This document shows, in pieces, positions 2,953 to 13,144 of a stretch of 13,385 bases of DNA (its first letter is position 1; each line of letters begins with the position of its first letter). The notes below the pieces were generated by a model. The model did no database searches, was not told where the DNA came from, and saw only the letters and a list, made by a program, of their open reading frames with translations. This DNA is from Thermoplasmata archaeon (lineage in GTDB: Archaea > Thermoplasmatota > Thermoplasmata > GCA-020350865). The DNA is taken from NCBI GenBank assembly GCA_020351895.1, contig CP070672.1:3279424-3292808 (forward strand). The letters run 5' to 3'. The position numbers were made by a program, and so were the translations under genes.

Positions 2953-3120
2953 TTAAAACCTACGTTGTGGCCTTCTCTTTCTATAGCACTCTTGGCAATA
3001 GACAGGTCTCGTGCCATCCGGTTTAAATGGAACCTGGGCTTCTTTACCGCAATCAGCACAGGTTACATTGTGCATTTCTCTAGGAGGACGATTGTACCCT
3101 CCTCTTCTCTCTCTATACAT
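2953..3120 (-). CDS. Small CxxC-x17-CxxC zinc-ribbon protein
   Basis: A 55-residue basic protein with four cysteines in two CxxC knuckles: C21/C24 and C42/C45 (CADC and CQEC), separated by exactly 17 residues. This spacing and the VPFKPDGTRPVYC segment match the family of tiny CxxC_CxxC zinc-binding proteins common in archaea and some uncultured bacteria; their role is unknown, and nucleic-acid binding is a reasonable guess from the Arg-rich ends. The frame is open upstream to a TTG at 3153, which would add ELGEEIGSIK-like residues. I prefer the ATG at 3120 because relatives begin with an Arg/Gly-rich stretch like MYRERRGGYN, and AGGT lies upstream. However, the TATA box at 3190-3197 would give the TTG start the short leader seen at other genes here, so the start remains uncertain. 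Confidence 0.85.
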   Translation of the reverse strand: MYRERRGGYNRPPREMHNVTCADCGKEAQVPFKPDGTRPVYCQECYRKRRPQRRF

Positions 3121-3189
3121 TTTTATACTACCTATTTCTTCACCAAGCTCCAATTCGAAAACTCGGTGGGCTACAGAACTGTCAGGTAC

Positions 3190-5010: not shown

Positions 5011-5044
5011 CACCTACTTTCAAGCGGCTTTCGGGGGATATTTG

Positions 5045-8000
5045 ATGAGATACAACAGTGTTAGAGTATTATCCTGCTTTATCATTCTGTTTCTTATTTT
5101 AATTTCCTCCTTTGAAATTGTAGCAATTGAGAATTTGCCAAAAACCGTTATTGCCTCGGGTAATAAGAATGGGGATGAACAATCTGCTCCTTTAATGTCT
5201 TCCACACCTTCCACTCCTTTCACCCCTTCCACTCCATCTACAAATGACCTTCCAATTGTCCCACTTCAAAATATGGGTTTAGGAAATTGGCATCCACTTA
5301 ACCCTGAGGAATATGAGCTTTCTTTTTGCATTGGAGAAAACATGGAACTTGATTTAGAAAACAATTATTACCCTTGCTGGAAGATCGAACCCTCATTACT
5401 GGCATCAATGAAAGACACAGAAAGAGTAAAAGTGCTCATCACATCAAATGATATGGGGGAGGTAAGAGAGCTATTGGGAATTGAGAATCCAAATTATGAA
5501 TATGAACAAAAGGGAAACATGATGAGGCTGAAGACATCTATACTCGAAATAGAAAGCCATCAGCTTCCTAAAATAGCGCAACTTGATAGTGTGGTGAGTG
5601 TTCAACACTATGAACTTCCAAAGCCACCACAATTTCCAGTGGATCTCGAAGATGGAACCGATCCTGCAATGTGGAACGCAGTAAAATACCACGGAGCAGA
5701 CGAGGCCTGGAGCCTCGGATACAATGGCTCAGGCGTGAAAGTGGCTGTAATTGATACAGGTGTGGATTTTGCTAATCCTGATCTCAATGGTACACAAGCC
5801 AGGGATGGGAATCCATCTTCACCATACTTTGGTTGGCCCCTTGCCTTCGATTCAAGGTCCATGAACAGTTACCTTTCATCGGGGGGGCAGGGTTATCCAG
5901 GGAGCAACAACTGGTTTAGCGACACAAATACCACGGACATGGATAGCAATGGCAACGGAACCCTCGATTCATCTGGTTATAACGTCATAGGTATCGTGAG
6001 CCAAAGCGGGATTTATCATATAGGCGAACATCCTGATACAAGGTTGAAAAATTTGTACGGTTACAATGCAGTTCTAGTTGTGGATGAAAATACCTCTGGT
6101 GTTTACGATACTGTATATGTTGATATAGACAACGATAAGAACTTTACAGATGAGAAACCCTGCAGAAAGGGAGATGAAGTATCAACACATGATTTTACAG
6201 GTGATGGTGTTCCTGATAGATCCGGTGGGATGACTTATTTCATAGCCGATGGAGTAAATCCAGTGCCGTATTCCGATATCATTGCAGCCGAAAATGGTTA
6301 TTCCCTTCCGATTCCTCCCAATGGCAGCCTTGTGGCCTTCATGATAAACGATTTTACAGAGGCTGGAAGAAATCATGGTACGTTATGTGCTTCAGCAGTT
6401 GCTGGACAGGGAGTTATCGGGGGAGGTAGAGTAAAAGGTACCGCCCCAAATGCCAAGATAATAGCAGTTGGAAATGTATACCAGCAGGGAACTAACTGGG
6501 TTGATTCCTATTACTTTTCCGTAGAAGGCTACGATGGAATTCCCGGCACAGGTGATGAGGCAAATATTGTGAGCTGCAGTTTTGGATCTTCGGATGTGAT
6601 CAGGGGTGGATGGGAGTTTACTTCGAGATTAGTGGACAATATCACCACCTACTACGCTCCAAATGTGACATTTGCAGTTGCAAGCGGAAACGGCGGTTAT
6701 GGGTACGGCACAGTTGTCTCGCCAGGCTCCTCCGTGGGTGTTGTAACGTGCGGAGCTGCGCTCAATAAGCAAATTACAGATATTGTATATTGGTCGAATC
6801 GCGGCCCGAATGCAGTGGGACAGGTGGATCCAGATATCGTGTCGGTTGGAGTTTCAGCCTACGGGGACAGGCCCCTAAACCAAGGCACCGCCAACGGCAA
6901 CAACGCTTACAGTCCCTGGAGCGGGACAAGCCTTTCGACTCCCGTTACCGCGGGAATACTAGCATTGATCTATGATGCCTACAATCAGTCCAATGGACAA
7001 TATCCTTCCTCCGATCTTACCCGAAAGATACTGATGTCAACTGCAGACAACCTTAATTATGATCCCCTGGTTCAGGGTGCTGGTTTCTCAAATGCCACAA
7101 GAGCTACAAAGGTTGCCAATAATATCTCTGGCATGCTGTTATCCCCCACATTCTGGACTGCTGGGGATTACAGAGGGACAGATTACGATGCCTTTGCGCA
7201 TATCATGCATCCAGGTGACACCGATGACACAACCATAACAGTATCAAATGCCCATCAAAACGATACAATGGAGGTCTTCATCTCAGACTATATACTTACC
7301 ATGACCGAAAGCCATTCAGTGACAATAGAGGCTAATAAATCCAGGGAGGATGCATCCACGGCTCGTCCCGATTTTTTAGTTCCGCTTAGGGATTCAAAGA
7401 ACAACATATCCTATATTCCAAACGATACTGCACTTCTTAAGGTCTCGGGCTTTATGCCTTGGGACGAGTTCGACCCTGATTTCGATTACACCCAGGAGAA
7501 TAGATTCTGGACCACGATCTACAATTGGAACGATAACAATGGAAACGGAAGCTATTGGAACGATACCAACGGTGACGGTGTTGCCCAGCAAGCCGAGATA
7601 GAATGGGGGGAGCTTTCCAGTGTATGCTCATCCTCCATTACAGCCACAACCCAAGAAGCGAGAATGCATGACCCCATATCAAGAATTGATGATGGACTCG
7701 TAGTAGGTGTTTTCCACAGTCCTACCGGAGATGCACCGGAAATCTCACACATATACATCCAATCCCAGTGCTACAATAGAACAGATTGGAGCTGGCTTTC
7801 TGCTAACACTTCGTATCTTTCTGTTGAAGCCAAAGGTCAAGCGACCTTCGAGGCATCCTTGATGGTCCCTCCTTCGACTCCTATTGGAATATACGAGGGT
7901 TTAATTGCTATAAACGATACGAGAAACGAGACAGTGGTTCCTGTAATCGTGAACGTCGCTGGGAATTCTGAACAGTTCACATTCGGAGGAAATACATTAT

Positions 8001-11000
8001 CCACGGATTTATACGCCAATGACCAGATATTTGGAGCTTTCAGGTGGGGCTGGAGATACGAGGGCGGCGACTGGAGATTTTATTTCACAGATATACCGGA
8101 TTCTTTTAACGTTAAACCAGGTACAAAATTGATCGCCGATGTTAAGTGGAGCAATTACCCCACGGACATAGATGTTTTTCTCCTGGGTGGATCGCGGGAT
8201 TCCTTTTCAAATGAAATGCCAAGCAGATTCGGTCCATATACCCTGGATATCAAGGGCGCAAGCTCAGATCAGTATATATGGGGCGGAAAGTTCAGGTTCA
8301 ACACCACAACCAATGGTCCACACGAGATAATTTCAGCGGATTTGAGTCCGGGATTGAATGAGATAATACTACATAATGTACTGTATGCGGGCCAGTCCTT
8401 CTCAGAGAATGTGACAGGCACCATAGGAACGGTCAATGTTACTCCTTATCCCTGGGACGTTGGCTTGATAGAAAATGTGGCAAACCTGACTGGAACACAG
8501 CAGTTTGAGCTGCTTTCGAGTTTCAATCTATCAGGTATCGACGTGCAAGGCTATGGAGTATATCCACCAATGGAATATCCCAACGAGCTCGTTTATCAGA
8601 ATGTCCCCAGCGACAAGACCACTTCAAATTGGTCAAGGGAATTCGATGTAAGTGGTGCCAAATCCATAAAGGTTAACATTTCAAGCCCAAACAGCATTGA
8701 TATCGACCTTTACCTGTTAAGGGATGATGGCGATGGCATACCTGAGTGGGGATCCGAGCAGGTGGCCTCCTCCACTTCCCCTTATGCCGATGAGGAGGTC
8801 ATACTCAACAGCCCTTCTGACGGTAAATATTGGGTTTTTGTTCATGGTTGGAATGTGCCTTTAAGTCCTTCATTATTTGACTGCTACATAGAAGTGGTCT
8901 CAGGAAACAATATCAATATCTCGGATATTCCTGGAGGATCAATCTCGGCAGGTGAGCCGGTTTACTTCAATGCCACCCATGATCTACCGCCTATTACAGG
9001 TGAGTACAGAGGGGTTATCTATGTCATGCTGACAAATCTATCAGATTCCATTAGCATTCCATTTATGGCTGAATTGGAGCAAGAGAAACCCATAATCACG
9101 AATCCCCAGCCTGCCAATGGTTTGTGGGTCAATTCAACCCAACCAATGATCGGTGCCCAGTATTATGACTCGGGCTCAGGGATCAATACCTCCAGGGTGT
9201 TCATTTTTCTGGACGGTATGAACCATACGGACAATGCAACCATAACTTCGAGCGCAATAAACCTAATTCCACCTTCGGCGATATCGGAGGGAAACCATAC
9301 CGTTTATCTAATAGTCACAGATATGTTCGGTAACCAGAACTCAACAACATGGCGATTCTTTGTGGACAGCATCGATCCCATTGCAGACGCAGGTTTTGAT
9401 GAGTCGGTTATCGAGGATGAAGTCATCGTATTTGACGGCTCCCTTTCCTCGGATGAAAACGAAATTATAAATCTAACATGGGATTTTGCCGATGGCAACT
9501 TCGGATACGGAATGAATCCATCCCATAGCTACCCCCAATCAGGAACATATGTTGTGACCCTGACGGTTTGGGACATAGCCAACAATACGGATTCCGATAC
9601 AGTTACTGTCTATGTGAACAATTTAGCACCACATGCTGTGGCAGGAGAGGATCAAATAATCGACGAAGGTGATTTCGCATTTTTTGACGGCAGTGATTCC
9701 TACGATACACCTTCGGATAATTCAACCCTGATTTTTACCTGGTATTTTGGTGACGGGGATGTGGTATCAGGTATAACAACAAGCCATGTTTTCATTGATA
9801 ATGGTGTTTACACCGTCACCCTTGTTGTTGAGGATGACAATGGATTTACAGACTCAGATACACTCTCTGTAACAGTAAATAATGTCGCACCAACTGCCGA
9901 TGCACATGGACCCTACGAGGGTGATGAAGGCTCAGAGATCACGTTCACAGGCACAGCCTCGGACCCCGGCATATCCGATACTCTCACATATCATTGGGAT
10001 TTCGGTGACGGAAATACTTCCACCCTACAGAATCCCACTCATACTTACGCAGATGATGGTATCTTTAATGTGATTTTAACTGTCACTGATGACGATGGTG
10101 GACTGGATTCTGATTCTGCCATTATGACGGTATATAATGTTGCGCCACAAGTGGAGGCAGGAGGACCTTATTCAGGTGATGAGGGTATGGGTTTGACATT
10201 TTTCGGTTCAGCAACCGATCCTGGCTCTGACATTCTTACCTATGAATGGGATCTGGACGATGATGGAATCTATGATGATGCTGCAGGTCAGAACCCTAGT
10301 TGGACTTGGTATGATGAAGGTGTGTATATAATCGGTCTGAGGGTTTCAGACGATGATGGTGGAATTGGAACCGATACAGCTTCCATAAACATCAATAATG
10401 TTGCACCTATAGCAGATGCAGGGGATTCTTACATTGGAAATGAGGGAGACACCATAACTTTCACAGGTACAGCAAATGATCCCGGCTCTGACCTCCTAAC
10501 CTATGAATGGGATTTCGATGATTCAGATGGTGTTACATACAGTGATTTCACAGGATCCAATCCCACCTGGATTTGGCCCGATGATTTTTCGGGTTTAATC
10601 TACCTAAGAGTAACAGATGATGACGGTGGTATTGGAACCGATACAGCCTCTGTTACCATCAACAATGTTGCGCCTATCGCAGATACAGGTGGTTCGTATA
10701 CTGGGAATGAAGGAAGTGCATTGACGATAACAGGCTCGGCAGAAGATCCTGGTACCGACATTTTAATCATTGAATGGGATCTTGATGATGATGGTTTCTA
10801 TGACGATGCAATGGGTGAAAATCCGACCTGGACATGGTATGACGACGGTGTTTATTTCATTCATTTGAAGGTTACAGATGATGATGGTGGTGTGGGTACA
10901 AATTCGGCAACTGTGATTATAAATAATGTTGCTCCCACACCCGATGCAGGAGGACCGTATGTGGGAAATGAGGGCACATCAATGGATTTTATCGGCAACC

Positions 11001-12277
11001 AAACCGATCCTGGATCAGATACGTTTACATACCTATGGGACTTTGGAGACGGCAAGATTAGCACACAACAGAATCCCACTCATATTTATTCTGATGATGG
11101 AGTTTACACAGTTTCCCTGACAGTAACAGATGATGATGGTGGGATGGCATTAGATTATGCCATAACCATTGTTTACAACGTTCCTCCTTCAATCGAGCCT
11201 GTGGAGAGTCCGATGAATGCCATTGAAGACGAAACCTTTTCTTTGAGGATATTGGCCACAGATTCTGAGGGGGATATGATTTCCTTTGCGGATGACACCG
11301 AACTTTTTAACATAGACCCCTTAAGTGGTTTAATCGAGTTCGTCCCCTCAAATGATGACGTTGGTTATAATGAAGTAACGATTACTGTTCGTGATGATGA
11401 AGGAGGAACTTCTACCCTCGTTTTCGTGATAAATGTTTTAAATGCTAACGATCCGCCGGCTCTTCATGAGGTCGGTCCTCAGAATGCGCAAGAAGATGAA
11501 CATTTCCAATTCACTGTATTCGCAAACGATATCGATTCAGATGATGAATTGAAGTTCTCGGATGATACCGACCTCTTTGAAATCGACTCTAACACAGGCA
11601 TCATATCATTCACTCCTACAAATGATCAGGTTGGTGTGGAAATTGTCACAATCACGGTAAGGGATGCCGAAGGTGCTTCAGACTCGGAGAGGGTGACCTT
11701 TACCATCCTCAATACGAATGATGCTCCGGTTCTCGATAGCATTTCTGATAGGCAGGCTGTGGTTGGGCAGAGAATCACCTTCACGGCAATAGGAAACGAT
11801 ATTGACGATATAATGCTGACATATTCAGACGATTCCGAACTATTCGAAATCAATCCAGTTACTGGTGAAGTGACCTTCACACCAAATCAAGAAGATGTGG
11901 GTATGCACTTCATAAACATCACGGTTTTCGATGATAGTGGTGCAAGCGACACTCAAATGATGAAACTCGAGATCGAGAGCATACCGGAGGAGGAACCCGA
12001 GCAAGAGATTGATTGGATATCCCTGATCTTACTCATCTTGATGATCATCCTGATCCTGCTCCTTCTTATACACATCCTGATGCACAGAAAAAGTGAAGAA
12101 GATGAAAAGCCATTGGACCTTGCGGATGACGAGAAGGAGCCCACAGGAATAGAGGAAAAAGAAATTGAGGAAGGAATTGACTCTGAAGAACAAAAGGAGA
12201 ACCAAGTGGCAAATGAAGAATTAATGGAGGAAGGAATCAAGGAAAGAAAGGATCCTGAAGAACAAGAGGAGAACTAA
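5045..12277 (+). CDS. Giant secreted, membrane-anchored S8 subtilase with PKD and cadherin-like repeats
   Basis: A 2410-residue surface protease, probably degrading extracellular protein. In order: signal peptide (about 1-27); Ser/Thr/Pro linker (about 47-68); I9-like propeptide region (about 115-195); and S8 catalytic domain with all key residues: D237 (VAVIDTGVD), H444 (NHGTLCAS), oxyanion N549 (ASGNGG) and S629 (GTSLSTP). About 206 residues separate Asp and His, far more than in subtilisin (about 32). Next come beta-rich regions (about 700-1190), a PPC-like domain (about 1194-1290), an Ig-like segment (about 1340-1443), seven PKD repeats (1444-2048), three cadherin-like repeats (2049-2313), one transmembrane helix (about 2325-2347) followed by HRK, and a Glu/Lys-rich 63-residue cytoplasmic tail. 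Many N-x-S/T sites suggest N-glycosylation. The ATG at 5045 is preferred over the adjacent TTG at 5042. The stop at 12275-12277 looks like a converted CAA codon (see tail repeats). Substrate unknown. Confidence 0.95.
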   Translation: MRYNSVRVLSCFIILFLILISSFEIVAIENLPKTVIASGNKNGDEQSAPLMSSTPSTPFTPSTPSTNDLPIVPLQNMGLGNWHPLNPEEYELSFCIGENMELDLENNYYPCWKIEPSLLASMKDTERVKVLITSNDMGEVRELLGIENPNYEYEQKGNMMRLKTSILEIESHQLPKIAQLDSVVSVQHYELPKPPQFPVDLEDGTDPAMWNAVKYHGADEAWSLGYNGSGVKVAVIDTGVDFANPDLNGTQARDGNPSSPYFGWPLAFDSRSMNSYLSSGGQGYPGSNNWFSDTNTTDMDSNGNGTLDSSGYNVIGIVSQSGIYHIGEHPDTRLKNLYGYNAVLVVDENTSGVYDTVYVDIDNDKNFTDEKPCRKGDEVSTHDFTGDGVPDRSGGMTYFIADGVNPVPYSDIIAAENGYSLPIPPNGSLVAFMINDFTEAGRNHGTLCASAVAGQGVIGGGRVKGTAPNAKIIAVGNVYQQGTNWVDSYYFSVEGYDGIPGTGDEANIVSCSFGSSDVIRGGWEFTSRLVDNITTYYAPNVTFAVASGNGGYGYGTVVSPGSSVGVVTCGAALNKQITDIVYWSNRGPNAVGQVDPDIVSVGVSAYGDRPLNQGTANGNNAYSPWSGTSLSTPVTAGILALIYDAYNQSNGQYPSSDLTRKILMSTADNLNYDPLVQGAGFSNATRATKVANNISGMLLSPTFWTAGDYRGTDYDAFAHIMHPGDTDDTTITVSNAHQNDTMEVFISDYILTMTESHSVTIEANKSREDASTARPDFLVPLRDSKNNISYIPNDTALLKVSGFMPWDEFDPDFDYTQENRFWTTIYNWNDNNGNGSYWNDTNGDGVAQQAEIEWGELSSVCSSSITATTQEARMHDPISRIDDGLVVGVFHSPTGDAPEISHIYIQSQCYNRTDWSWLSANTSYLSVEAKGQATFEASLMVPPSTPIGIYEGLIAINDTRNETVVPVIVNVAGNSEQFTFGGNTLSTDLYANDQIFGAFRWGWRYEGGDWRFYFTDIPDSFNVKPGTKLIADVKWSNYPTDIDVFLLGGSRDSFSNEMPSRFGPYTLDIKGASSDQYIWGGKFRFNTTTNGPHEIISADLSPGLNEIILHNVLYAGQSFSENVTGTIGTVNVTPYPWDVGLIENVANLTGTQQFELLSSFNLSGIDVQGYGVYPPMEYPNELVYQNVPSDKTTSNWSREFDVSGAKSIKVNISSPNSIDIDLYLLRDDGDGIPEWGSEQVASSTSPYADEEVILNSPSDGKYWVFVHGWNVPLSPSLFDCYIEVVSGNNINISDIPGGSISAGEPVYFNATHDLPPITGEYRGVIYVMLTNLSDSISIPFMAELEQEKPIITNPQPANGLWVNSTQPMIGAQYYDSGSGINTSRVFIFLDGMNHTDNATITSSAINLIPPSAISEGNHTVYLIVTDMFGNQNSTTWRFFVDSIDPIADAGFDESVIEDEVIVFDGSLSSDENEIINLTWDFADGNFGYGMNPSHSYPQSGTYVVTLTVWDIANNTDSDTVTVYVNNLAPHAVAGEDQIIDEGDFAFFDGSDSYDTPSDNSTLIFTWYFGDGDVVSGITTSHVFIDNGVYTVTLVVEDDNGFTDSDTLSVTVNNVAPTADAHGPYEGDEGSEITFTGTASDPGISDTLTYHWDFGDGNTSTLQNPTHTYADDGIFNVILTVTDDDGGLDSDSAIMTVYNVAPQVEAGGPYSGDEGMGLTFFGSATDPGSDILTYEWDLDDDGIYDDAAGQNPSWTWYDEGVYIIGLRVSDDDGGIGTDTASININNVAPIADAGDSYIGNEGDTITFTGTANDPGSDLLTYEWDFDDSDGVTYSDFTGSNPTWIWPDDFSGLIYLRVTDDDGGIGTDTASVTINNVAPIADTGGSYTGNEGSALTITGSAEDPGTDILIIEWDLDDDGFYDDAMGENPTWTWYDDGVYFIHLKVTDDDGGVGTNSATVIINNVAPTPDAGGPYVGNEGTSMDFIGNQTDPGSDTFTYLWDFGDGKISTQQNPTHIYSDDGVYTVSLTVTDDDGGMALDYAITIVYNVPPSIEPVESPMNAIEDETFSLRILATDSEGDMISFADDTELFNIDPLSGLIEFVPSNDDVGYNEVTITVRDDEGGTSTLVFVINVLNANDPPALHEVGPQNAQEDEHFQFTVFANDIDSDDELKFSDDTDLFEIDSNTGIISFTPTNDQVGVEIVTITVRDAEGASDSERVTFTILNTNDAPVLDSISDRQAVVGQRITFTAIGNDIDDIMLTYSDDSELFEINPVTGEVTFTPNQEDVGMHFINITVFDDSGASDTQMMKLEIESIPEEEPEQEIDWISLILLILMIILILLLLIHILMHRKSEEDEKPLDLADDEKEPTGIEEKEIEEGIDSEEQKENQVANEELMEEGIKERKDPEEQEEN
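9374..11188 (+). repeat. Seven tandem PKD repeats within the subtilase
   Basis: Seven units of 84-89 residues end in NNLAP, NNVAP, YNVAP or YNVPP: 9374-9631, 9632-9892, 9893-10147, 10148-10408, 10409-10675, 10676-10936 and 10937-11188. Each has the PKD core (WDFGDG or its variant WDLDDDG) and a TVTDDDGG-type strand. PKD domains are beta-sandwich spacers, often in surface proteins, that can bind calcium or polymers. Units 4 and 6 share the variant WDLDDDG with a YDDA insertion, while units 3 and 7 share an identical 16-base DNA stretch (10028-10043 and 11069-11084). Confidence 0.92.
11189..11983 (+). repeat. Three tandem cadherin-like (CADG-type) repeats within the subtilase
   Basis: Units at 11189-11458, 11459-11728 and 11729-about 11983; the first two are exactly 90 residues. 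Shared features are a D-D-x-E/D-L-F-x-I-x-x-x-(S/T)-G core (DDTELFNIDPLSG, DDTDLFEIDSNTG, DDSELFEINPVTG), a VTITVRD-type strand and NDPP or NDAP at the end of the first two units. This matches dystroglycan-type cadherin-like domains. They probably act as a calcium-stiffened stalk between the PKD array and the membrane helix. Confidence 0.85.
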
Positions 12278-12349
12278 GAAGAAAAGGAAGAAGTAATGAA
12301 GGAGGGAATCAAGGAAGGAAAGAAATCTGAGGAACAAAAAGAGAATCAA
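12167..12349 (+). repeat. Tandem 72-base acidic repeats at the end of the subtilase gene
   Basis: Two full 24-codon units (12206-12277 and 12278-12349) follow a partial unit (12167-12205). Each carries EGI(K/D), then SEEQ or PEEQ, then EN. The last codon of each unit is CAA (12203-12205), TAA (12275-12277) and CAA (12347-12349), spaced exactly 72 bases apart. The codons encode Glu/Lys/Gln-rich, probably disordered cytoplasmic sequence. Confidence 0.8.
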
Positions 12350-12406
12350 GACGTACGGGATTCGGAAGAAGTTAAGGATGAACAGGAAAAGAAGAAAAAG
12401 GATTAA
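12278..12406 (+). other. In-frame extension of the subtilase tail beyond its stop codon
   Basis: After the TAA at 12275-12277 the same frame stays open for 42 codons, to a TAA at 12404-12406. The encoded residues (for example EEKEEVMKEGIKEGKKSEEQ) continue the acidic repeat of the tail. No start codon with a ribosome binding site is evident, so it is best read as former or conditional coding sequence of the subtilase, giving a full form of 2453 residues if position 2411 is Gln. Confidence 0.7.
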
Positions 12407-12426
12407 TTAAGTTCAATTCGAAGGTT

Positions 12427-12436: not shown

Positions 12437-13144
12437 ATGACTGAAGTGCTCTATATGAAGGATATCGAGGGAAACTACATAAAGGAATTCGATGCGAAGG
12501 TGATAAAGAAAAGGGATAACTATGTCGTGCTGGACAAAAGTGCATTTTATCCACTTGGTGGAGGGCAACCCTCTGATACAGGTGTGCTTAAATGGTCAGG
12601 AGGGGAGAGCAAGGTTGCCGAGGTTCAGAAAAAAGGCATTATAAAGCATATCATAACCGGTGAAATGCCCGAAGGAGAGGTGCACGGGATATTGGACTGG
12701 GATAAAAGGTACGCCCACATGAAGATGCACACGGCCCAGCATGTCATATCTGGTGTGGTATACGACATCTACAATGCAAGGACCGTGGGAAATCAGATTC
12801 ATGCAGATCATTCCCGGGTGGATTTTTATCCAGTCAACCTCTCTGAAGAAGATCTAAAGACCGTCGAAAATGCATCAAATGAGGTGATCAGCAGGAATGC
12901 TGACGTGAAAATTTATGAAGAGGAAAGGGAAAGCTTGGAGAAGAGAACGGACCCATTGCGATCCAATTTGGACCTCATTCCCGCTTCAATTAAGAACCTC
13001 CGTATTGTGGAGATTACGGGTTTTGATGTCTGCCCCTGTGCCGGAACCCATGTGAAAACAACCGCAGAGCTTGGAACATTAAAGATAATAAAGAAGGAGA
13101 ACAAGGGAAAGGACAAGGAGAGAATAATCTATACATTGCAGTGA
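12437..13144 (+). CDS. alaX: AlaX-type alanyl-tRNA editing hydrolase
   Basis: A stand-alone relative of the alanyl-tRNA synthetase editing domain; AlaX proteins hydrolyse Ser-tRNA(Ala), or Gly-tRNA(Ala), to prevent mistranslation. From the ATG at 12437 it is 235 residues, the size of the AlaX-M class. The N-terminal beta-barrel part has the AlaRS-like FYPLGGGQPSDTG (around 37-49). The zinc-binding editing site has HTAQH (H98, H102) and CAGTH (C201, H205), so all four ligands are present. An extra Cys (C199) precedes the second motif. It follows the subtilase by 159 bases, or 30 bases after the second TAA, and precedes the PAPS-reductase-family gene by 44 bases on the same strand, so it may be cotranscribed with the latter. 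No synthetase domain is present. Confidence 0.95.
   Translation: MTEVLYMKDIEGNYIKEFDAKVIKKRDNYVVLDKSAFYPLGGGQPSDTGVLKWSGGESKVAEVQKKGIIKHIITGEMPEGEVHGILDWDKRYAHMKMHTAQHVISGVVYDIYNARTVGNQIHADHSRVDFYPVNLSEEDLKTVENASNEVISRNADVKIYEEERESLEKRTDPLRSNLDLIPASIKNLRIVEITGFDVCPCAGTHVKTTAELGTLKIIKKENKGKDKERIIYTLQ

Follow-up and report, generated by a model that had tools for sequence, protein, structure and literature searches.

In Archaea, stop codon read-through has been unequivocally shown for selenocysteine and pyrrolysine only, according to PMC8037382. Another way for a stop codon to come to lie within an open frame is a stop-gain mutation in a C-terminal tail, in which a sense codon stands one transition away, an open tail-like frame continues beyond the new stop and the product is shortened. 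The case described here shares these features. It was found in the gene of a giant surface subtilase of an uncultured Thermoplasmata archaeon, in a stretch of 13,385 nucleotides (CP070672.1, positions 3,279,424 to 3,292,808; hereafter the window). It differs from the general case in that the stop lies at the boundary of a tandem-repeat unit, so that the adjacent copies in one genome show which codon it probably replaced. No precedent for such a change in a repeat tail was found in searches of open-licence papers, where a paper on Tetrahymena metallothioneins was judged unrelated. We consider it likely that the stop arose by a fairly recent C-to-T change in a tail that tolerates differences in length.

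The subtilase coding sequence runs from TTG 5042 or ATG 5045 to TAA 12275 (5042..12277, forward strand) and comprises 2,411 codons; the 2410-residue entry P0001 of the protein collection used is the window's own protein. The peptidase S8 domain (PF00082) was matched over residues 229-674 with 105.9 bits against a cut-off of 21.8. It is accompanied by at least seven PKD domains (PF18911, seven stretches) and by Big_9/He_PIG (cadherin-like) domains (PF17963, three stretches). The translation contains AVIDTGVD, NHGTLCA and GTSLSTPV, which we take to be the Asp, His and Ser motifs of the S8 catalytic triad. A hydrophobic segment at about 12017..12079, with a best 21-residue mean hydropathy of 3.42, is presumed to be a single C-terminal transmembrane helix, and a charged tail of 65 residues follows it. 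This architecture of PKD and Big_9/He_PIG domains, one C-terminal helix and a charged tail is shared with other PKD-containing S8 subtilases from Thermoplasmata and metagenomes (P0006, P0009, P0015 and others). According to PMC6461988, benthic archaea of Marine Benthic Group D (MBG-D) possess and express extracellular peptidases, of which some are annotated as PKD-containing. The window subtilase may degrade sediment protein. Near its N-terminus, a short repeat of 18 (9) bases at 5199-5235 encodes a stretch rich in Thr, Pro and Ser.

The tail of the subtilase is encoded by a Glu/Lys-rich repeat with a period of 72 bases. Tandem Repeats Finder placed the array at 12183-12351, with 2.3 copies, 81% matches, no indels and a score of 226. 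The first copy considered here, copy 0 (IEEKEIEEGIDSEEQKEN), occupies 12149..12202, with limits that depend on the alignment. Copy B, the next coding copy (12203..12274), begins with CAA (Gln) at 12203-12205. The copy after it, copy C, begins with the stop TAA at 12275-12277 and continues in frame, after the stop, over 12278..12346. A second CAA stands at 12347-12349. The original prediction had placed these three codons at an exact spacing of 72 bases, each after GAG AAC or GAG AAT. Both bases and spacing were confirmed, with GAG AAC before the first two and GAG AAT before the third. All three lie in the subtilase frame, and the repeat runs across the TAA in phase and without an indel. The stop is thus one substitution, a C-to-T transition, away from the CAA found at the homologous position of both neighbouring copies. 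The frame was also found to stay open, as predicted, for 42 codons beyond the stop, up to a TAA at 12404-12406 that is preceded by GAT; read to that point, the tail would measure 108 residues. The prediction that the repeat itself reaches 12404 held only to about 12351. From 12352 to 12403 the translation is similarly rich in Glu and Lys, but no convincing alignment to the repeat unit was obtained.

Is the DNA after the stop former coding sequence? Openness of the frame was rejected as evidence, being too common. A frame of at least 42 open codons follows the stop of 52 of 229 open reading frames (ORFs) longer than 250 codons in the window and loci L001-L035 (the window itself counted; six further ORFs were dropped where the locus ended first), and when 12278-12403 is shuffled by dinucleotides, the frame stays open in 19.9% of cases. 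That count is also what speaks for a chance origin, in which a Glu/Lys-like spacer simply happens to be open. The base composition argues otherwise. The 126 post-stop bases contain 83% purine (87% in the remainder of copy C), a content not reached by any of 233 control post-stop segments, whereas the range is 41-60% in five stretches elsewhere in the window that are presumed to be non-coding, among them the 30 bases before the downstream AlaX-like gene. For the outer open stretch that begins with CAA (12347..12403), the purine content is 79%, matched by a 57-base window in only two of the 233 controls. Together with the in-phase repeat without indels, these values contradict chance for copy C; 12352-12403 may still be open by chance. 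As an account of the whole stretch it is very improbable.

The codon pattern of copy C points in the same direction. When the three copies were aligned with MAFFT under three settings and without codon information, the alignment was ungapped, and the changes private to copy C comprised five synonymous and two non-synonymous ones (2/0/5 by codon position). Copy B had none and five, respectively, and copy 0 had four and 13. Under the neutral expectation for the repeat unit (25.5% synonymous), at least five synonymous changes among seven have a probability of 0.014. A protein-guided hand alignment of copies 0 and C had placed nine of 11 differences at third positions (binomial 0.0014), but was dropped as circular because its gaps had been placed by amino acid. 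From the in-phase repeat, the purine content and the codon pattern, post-stop copy C looks like recently coding sequence, although the numbers are small and depend on the alignment. The pattern after the stop, few as the changes are, thus favours recent coding over DNA that has long been non-coding.

On the reading that we favour, the subtilase tail would once have been longer, extending through copy C and probably to the TAA at 12404. A single C-to-T change at the start of copy C would have replaced CAA with TAA, so that the last 43 codons (the CAA and the 42 after it) dropped out of the coding sequence, leaving the orphaned 126 bases as part of the spacer before the AlaX-like gene. The change was probably near-neutral, because the remaining tail of 65 residues is of ordinary length. 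We infer the direction of the change, its recency and its near-neutrality, as well as its reality as opposed to a consensus error.

The ordinary length of the tail was judged from similar proteins. Lists were taken from the protein collection as the best 120 of 3440 (about 1326-4219 residues), all 13 (160-511 residues) and the best 120 of 5643 (401-1277 residues); for the lists of 120, scoring was limited to the candidates with the most words in common, and the length limits are those of the tool description. For the 253 proteins in these lists, hydropathy showed a clear C-terminal helix in 41, of which 29 also had a loose family pattern before the helix; the set includes partial proteins, and not every member is annotated as a subtilase. 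With the window's own protein excluded, the tails of the remaining 28 measure 42-159 residues (median 69.5). A tail of 65 residues is typical among them and gives no sign of damage from shortening, and one of 108 residues would be exceeded by five of the 28. Because its length is ordinary, the shortened tail may not amount to a loss. In composition the window tail differs from many of the others: Pro makes up at least 20% of the tail in 14 of the 28 and 5% in the window. The 24-residue Glu/Lys repeat was seen, by eye, in the last 60 residues of none of the 28 proteins.

A scan was made of 929 stop-to-stop ORFs of at least 100 codons, many of them surely non-genes, in 70 loci: the window and 69 windows of 20 kilobases around PKD and cadherin-like matches, among the matches listed. 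The window's in-phase repeat score of 36.5 was the third highest of the 929, after an ORF of 112 residues (90), which was judged not to be a gene, and an ORF of locus L155 (84). Scores of at least 20 were reached by seven ORFs in phase and by two out of phase. The in-phase set consists of L155, the window, four ORFs of 107-139 residues, judged to be mostly non-genes, and one of 768 residues. Of the 929, 29 have a charged tail of at least 30 residues behind a hydrophobic helix. Within this group the in-phase scores were 84 for L155, 36.5 for the window and 16.5 for locus L137, and the other 26 did not exceed 9.5. Tandem Repeats Finder detected an array in 10 of the 29 tails, and the array crosses the stop in two, those of the window and L155. 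The third-ranking member of the group (L137 17530-18831, reverse strand) was considered as a further case, with TAG where the preceding 30-base DDWEEELPPP unit has TGG and a weak DDFEEE remnant after it. It was counted as ambiguous because the protein ends in ELPPPED, much as ordinary termini do, for example that of a protein in locus L164.

The parallel case (L155 9944-12862, reverse strand; also seen at L103 3732-4063) is a different surface protein, encoded in genome G002 (CP070751.1), whose Asp/Glu/Pro tail array continues in frame past a TAA. As in the window, the repeat belongs to a charged cytoplasmic tail and runs in phase across the stop, and the stop stands, as judged by eye, where sense units have GAA or GAG. 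Unlike in the window, the repeat is of a different kind, further stops (TGA, TAA and TAG) follow, and a 90-base stop-bearing unit has been duplicated, with TAA followed by TGA 90 bases on. The case looks older than that of the window because its post-stop array carries these further stops. The open stretch past the stop has PPPPDD-TAA-GAA-TAG at its far end. The best match of the protein in genome G001 (L164 7740-10556) is 54% identical over 848 residues, with an E value of 3e-303 against 7e-69 for the next, in an ortholog test run in this direction only. That protein ends in PPPDDE-TAG, which resembles the far end at L155, and for this reason the inner stop at L155 looks derived and then duplicated. 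The locus also holds, at 3768-17828 on the reverse strand, three large adjacent surface-type ORFs with charged tails, two of which carry a tandem array in the tail.

The main rival to a C-to-T stop gain concerns the history of the array. The stop may originally have stood at a repeat boundary and been copied outward by a 72-base tandem duplication, after which the outer TAA at 12347 became CAA, so that copy C was coding only briefly or never. In a variant, the ancestral stop stood at 12347 and the TAA at 12275 was gained later. Only one point change is needed after the duplication, and the 90-base unit duplicated together with its stop at L155/L103 indicates that stop-bearing units can be copied. 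The spacing to the downstream gene also fits. That gene encodes an AlaX-like alanyl-tRNA editing protein (Pfam tRNA_SAD; 12437..13144, forward strand) and is 85% identical in the two closest relatives with the same gene order, L001 (CP070739.1) and L002 (CP070751.1), in both of which it follows a subtilase-type C-terminus. From the subtilase stop to the AlaX start there are 159 bases in the window, 94 in L001 and 79 in L002; with a stop at 12347 the distance would be 87 bases, close to the values of the relatives, and with one at 12404 it would be 30. The mostly synonymous private changes of copy C count against this rival, as does the tail-like, purine-rich character of 12347-12403. We regard it as unlikely, though clearly less so than the others considered here.

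Upstream of the AlaX-like gene, GGATTAATTAAG (12400..12411, forward strand) aligns with TTTAATAA of L001 and L002. From its position and its conservation in three sequences, it is probably a TATA/BRE element (BRE, B recognition element) and part of the core promoter of the gene. The distance from the start of TTAAT to the AlaX ATG is 34 bases in the window, 38 in L001 and 37 in L002. The next in-frame TAA (12404..12406, forward strand) lies inside this TATA-like element, and the old tail, had it ended there, would have overlapped the AlaX promoter.

The family comparison covers these two genomes. The L002 subtilase is 70% identical to that of the window over residues 5-1643 and 54% over 1770-2395. 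The L001 subtilase is 54% identical over 1991-2395 and comparable only in its C-terminal part, since that part lies behind a run of N in CP070739.1 (the open frame begins at 8443). Beyond the membrane helix, the tails of L001 and L002 gave no usable alignment to that of the window. In a search of the class of G002 with the last 292 residues, covering 400 genomes drawn from a larger group, eight genomes matched at 1e-20 and no closer relative was among them.

A misread base at 12275, with the protein in fact continuing, is a different kind of explanation. P0001 is a single-member cluster on one contig of 4.23 Mb, so the base is without independent confirmation, and reads can be stacked wrongly in a tandem array. 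However, no interruption is seen in the 2,411-codon frame or in the three other complete genes of the window with Pfam matches, and the TAA and TGA carried by tail-array copies 90 bases apart in another genome are hard to explain by error. A consensus or assembly error therefore appears improbable. Programmed or leaky read-through, by which tails of 65 and 108 residues would both be made, draws on the open and coding-like frame beyond the stop. With archaeal recoding for pyrrolysine and selenocysteine the locus has in common a stop inside an otherwise open frame. Pyrrolysine uses UAG and selenocysteine UGA; the TAA found here fits neither, and neither a recoding signal nor a second isoform is known for it. 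No Rfam family was found in the window at gathering score, and the further stops in the L155 array indicate that that tail has not been kept readable. Read-through is accordingly very doubtful, on a par with chance and below a consensus error. Among the four origins offered by the original prediction (a recent nonsense mutation, a polymorphism, read-through and a consensus error), the first was best supported, by the recently coding look of copy C and the L155 array that crosses its stop, and read-through was disfavoured.

Several observations weigh against a recent C-to-T stop gain. The codon test draws on seven changes, all private to a single copy of the three, and the ungapped alignment of copy 0 has gapped alternatives. 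In a pairwise DNA alignment, copies 0 and C differ at 7/4/11 sites by codon position; copies B and C differ at 7/2/7, with three synonymous and 10 non-synonymous codons (the stop among the latter). The TAA at 12404 lies inside a conserved promoter-like element and need not be the old stop. Neither a same-species allele with CAA nor a protein fragment from the same species was found in the three lists described above (best 120 of 3440, all 13 and best 120 of 5643), in which no protein other than the window's own exceeded 61% identity. At L155, the likeness of the far end to the G001 protein was judged by eye, PPPDD also recurs inside the array, and the polarity of the change is only suggested.

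Elsewhere in the window, an ORF of 66 residues on the reverse strand (2953-3153) contains CxxC pairs and is zinc-ribbon-like by translation only.

The stop in the subtilase tail gives no pointer to a new decoding mechanism. It is a modest and largely ordinary example of free variation in tail length, and a small, clean instance in which repeats within one genome show which codon probably stood where the stop now is. A bolder idea, to which we give very little credence, is that the tandem-repeat tails of surface proteins in this lineage mix stop-bearing and stop-free units, and that the effective stop shifts when units recombine unequally or slip. If true, a single population would include cells with a long tail on this surface protease and cells with a short one, which would amount to a switch of tail length on the cytoplasmic side. 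Taken with the L155/L103 case, the window suggests that the cytoplasmic tails of giant archaeal surface proteins tolerate stop gains and changes in length, which bears on the weight given to tail length and tail motifs when such proteins are annotated.

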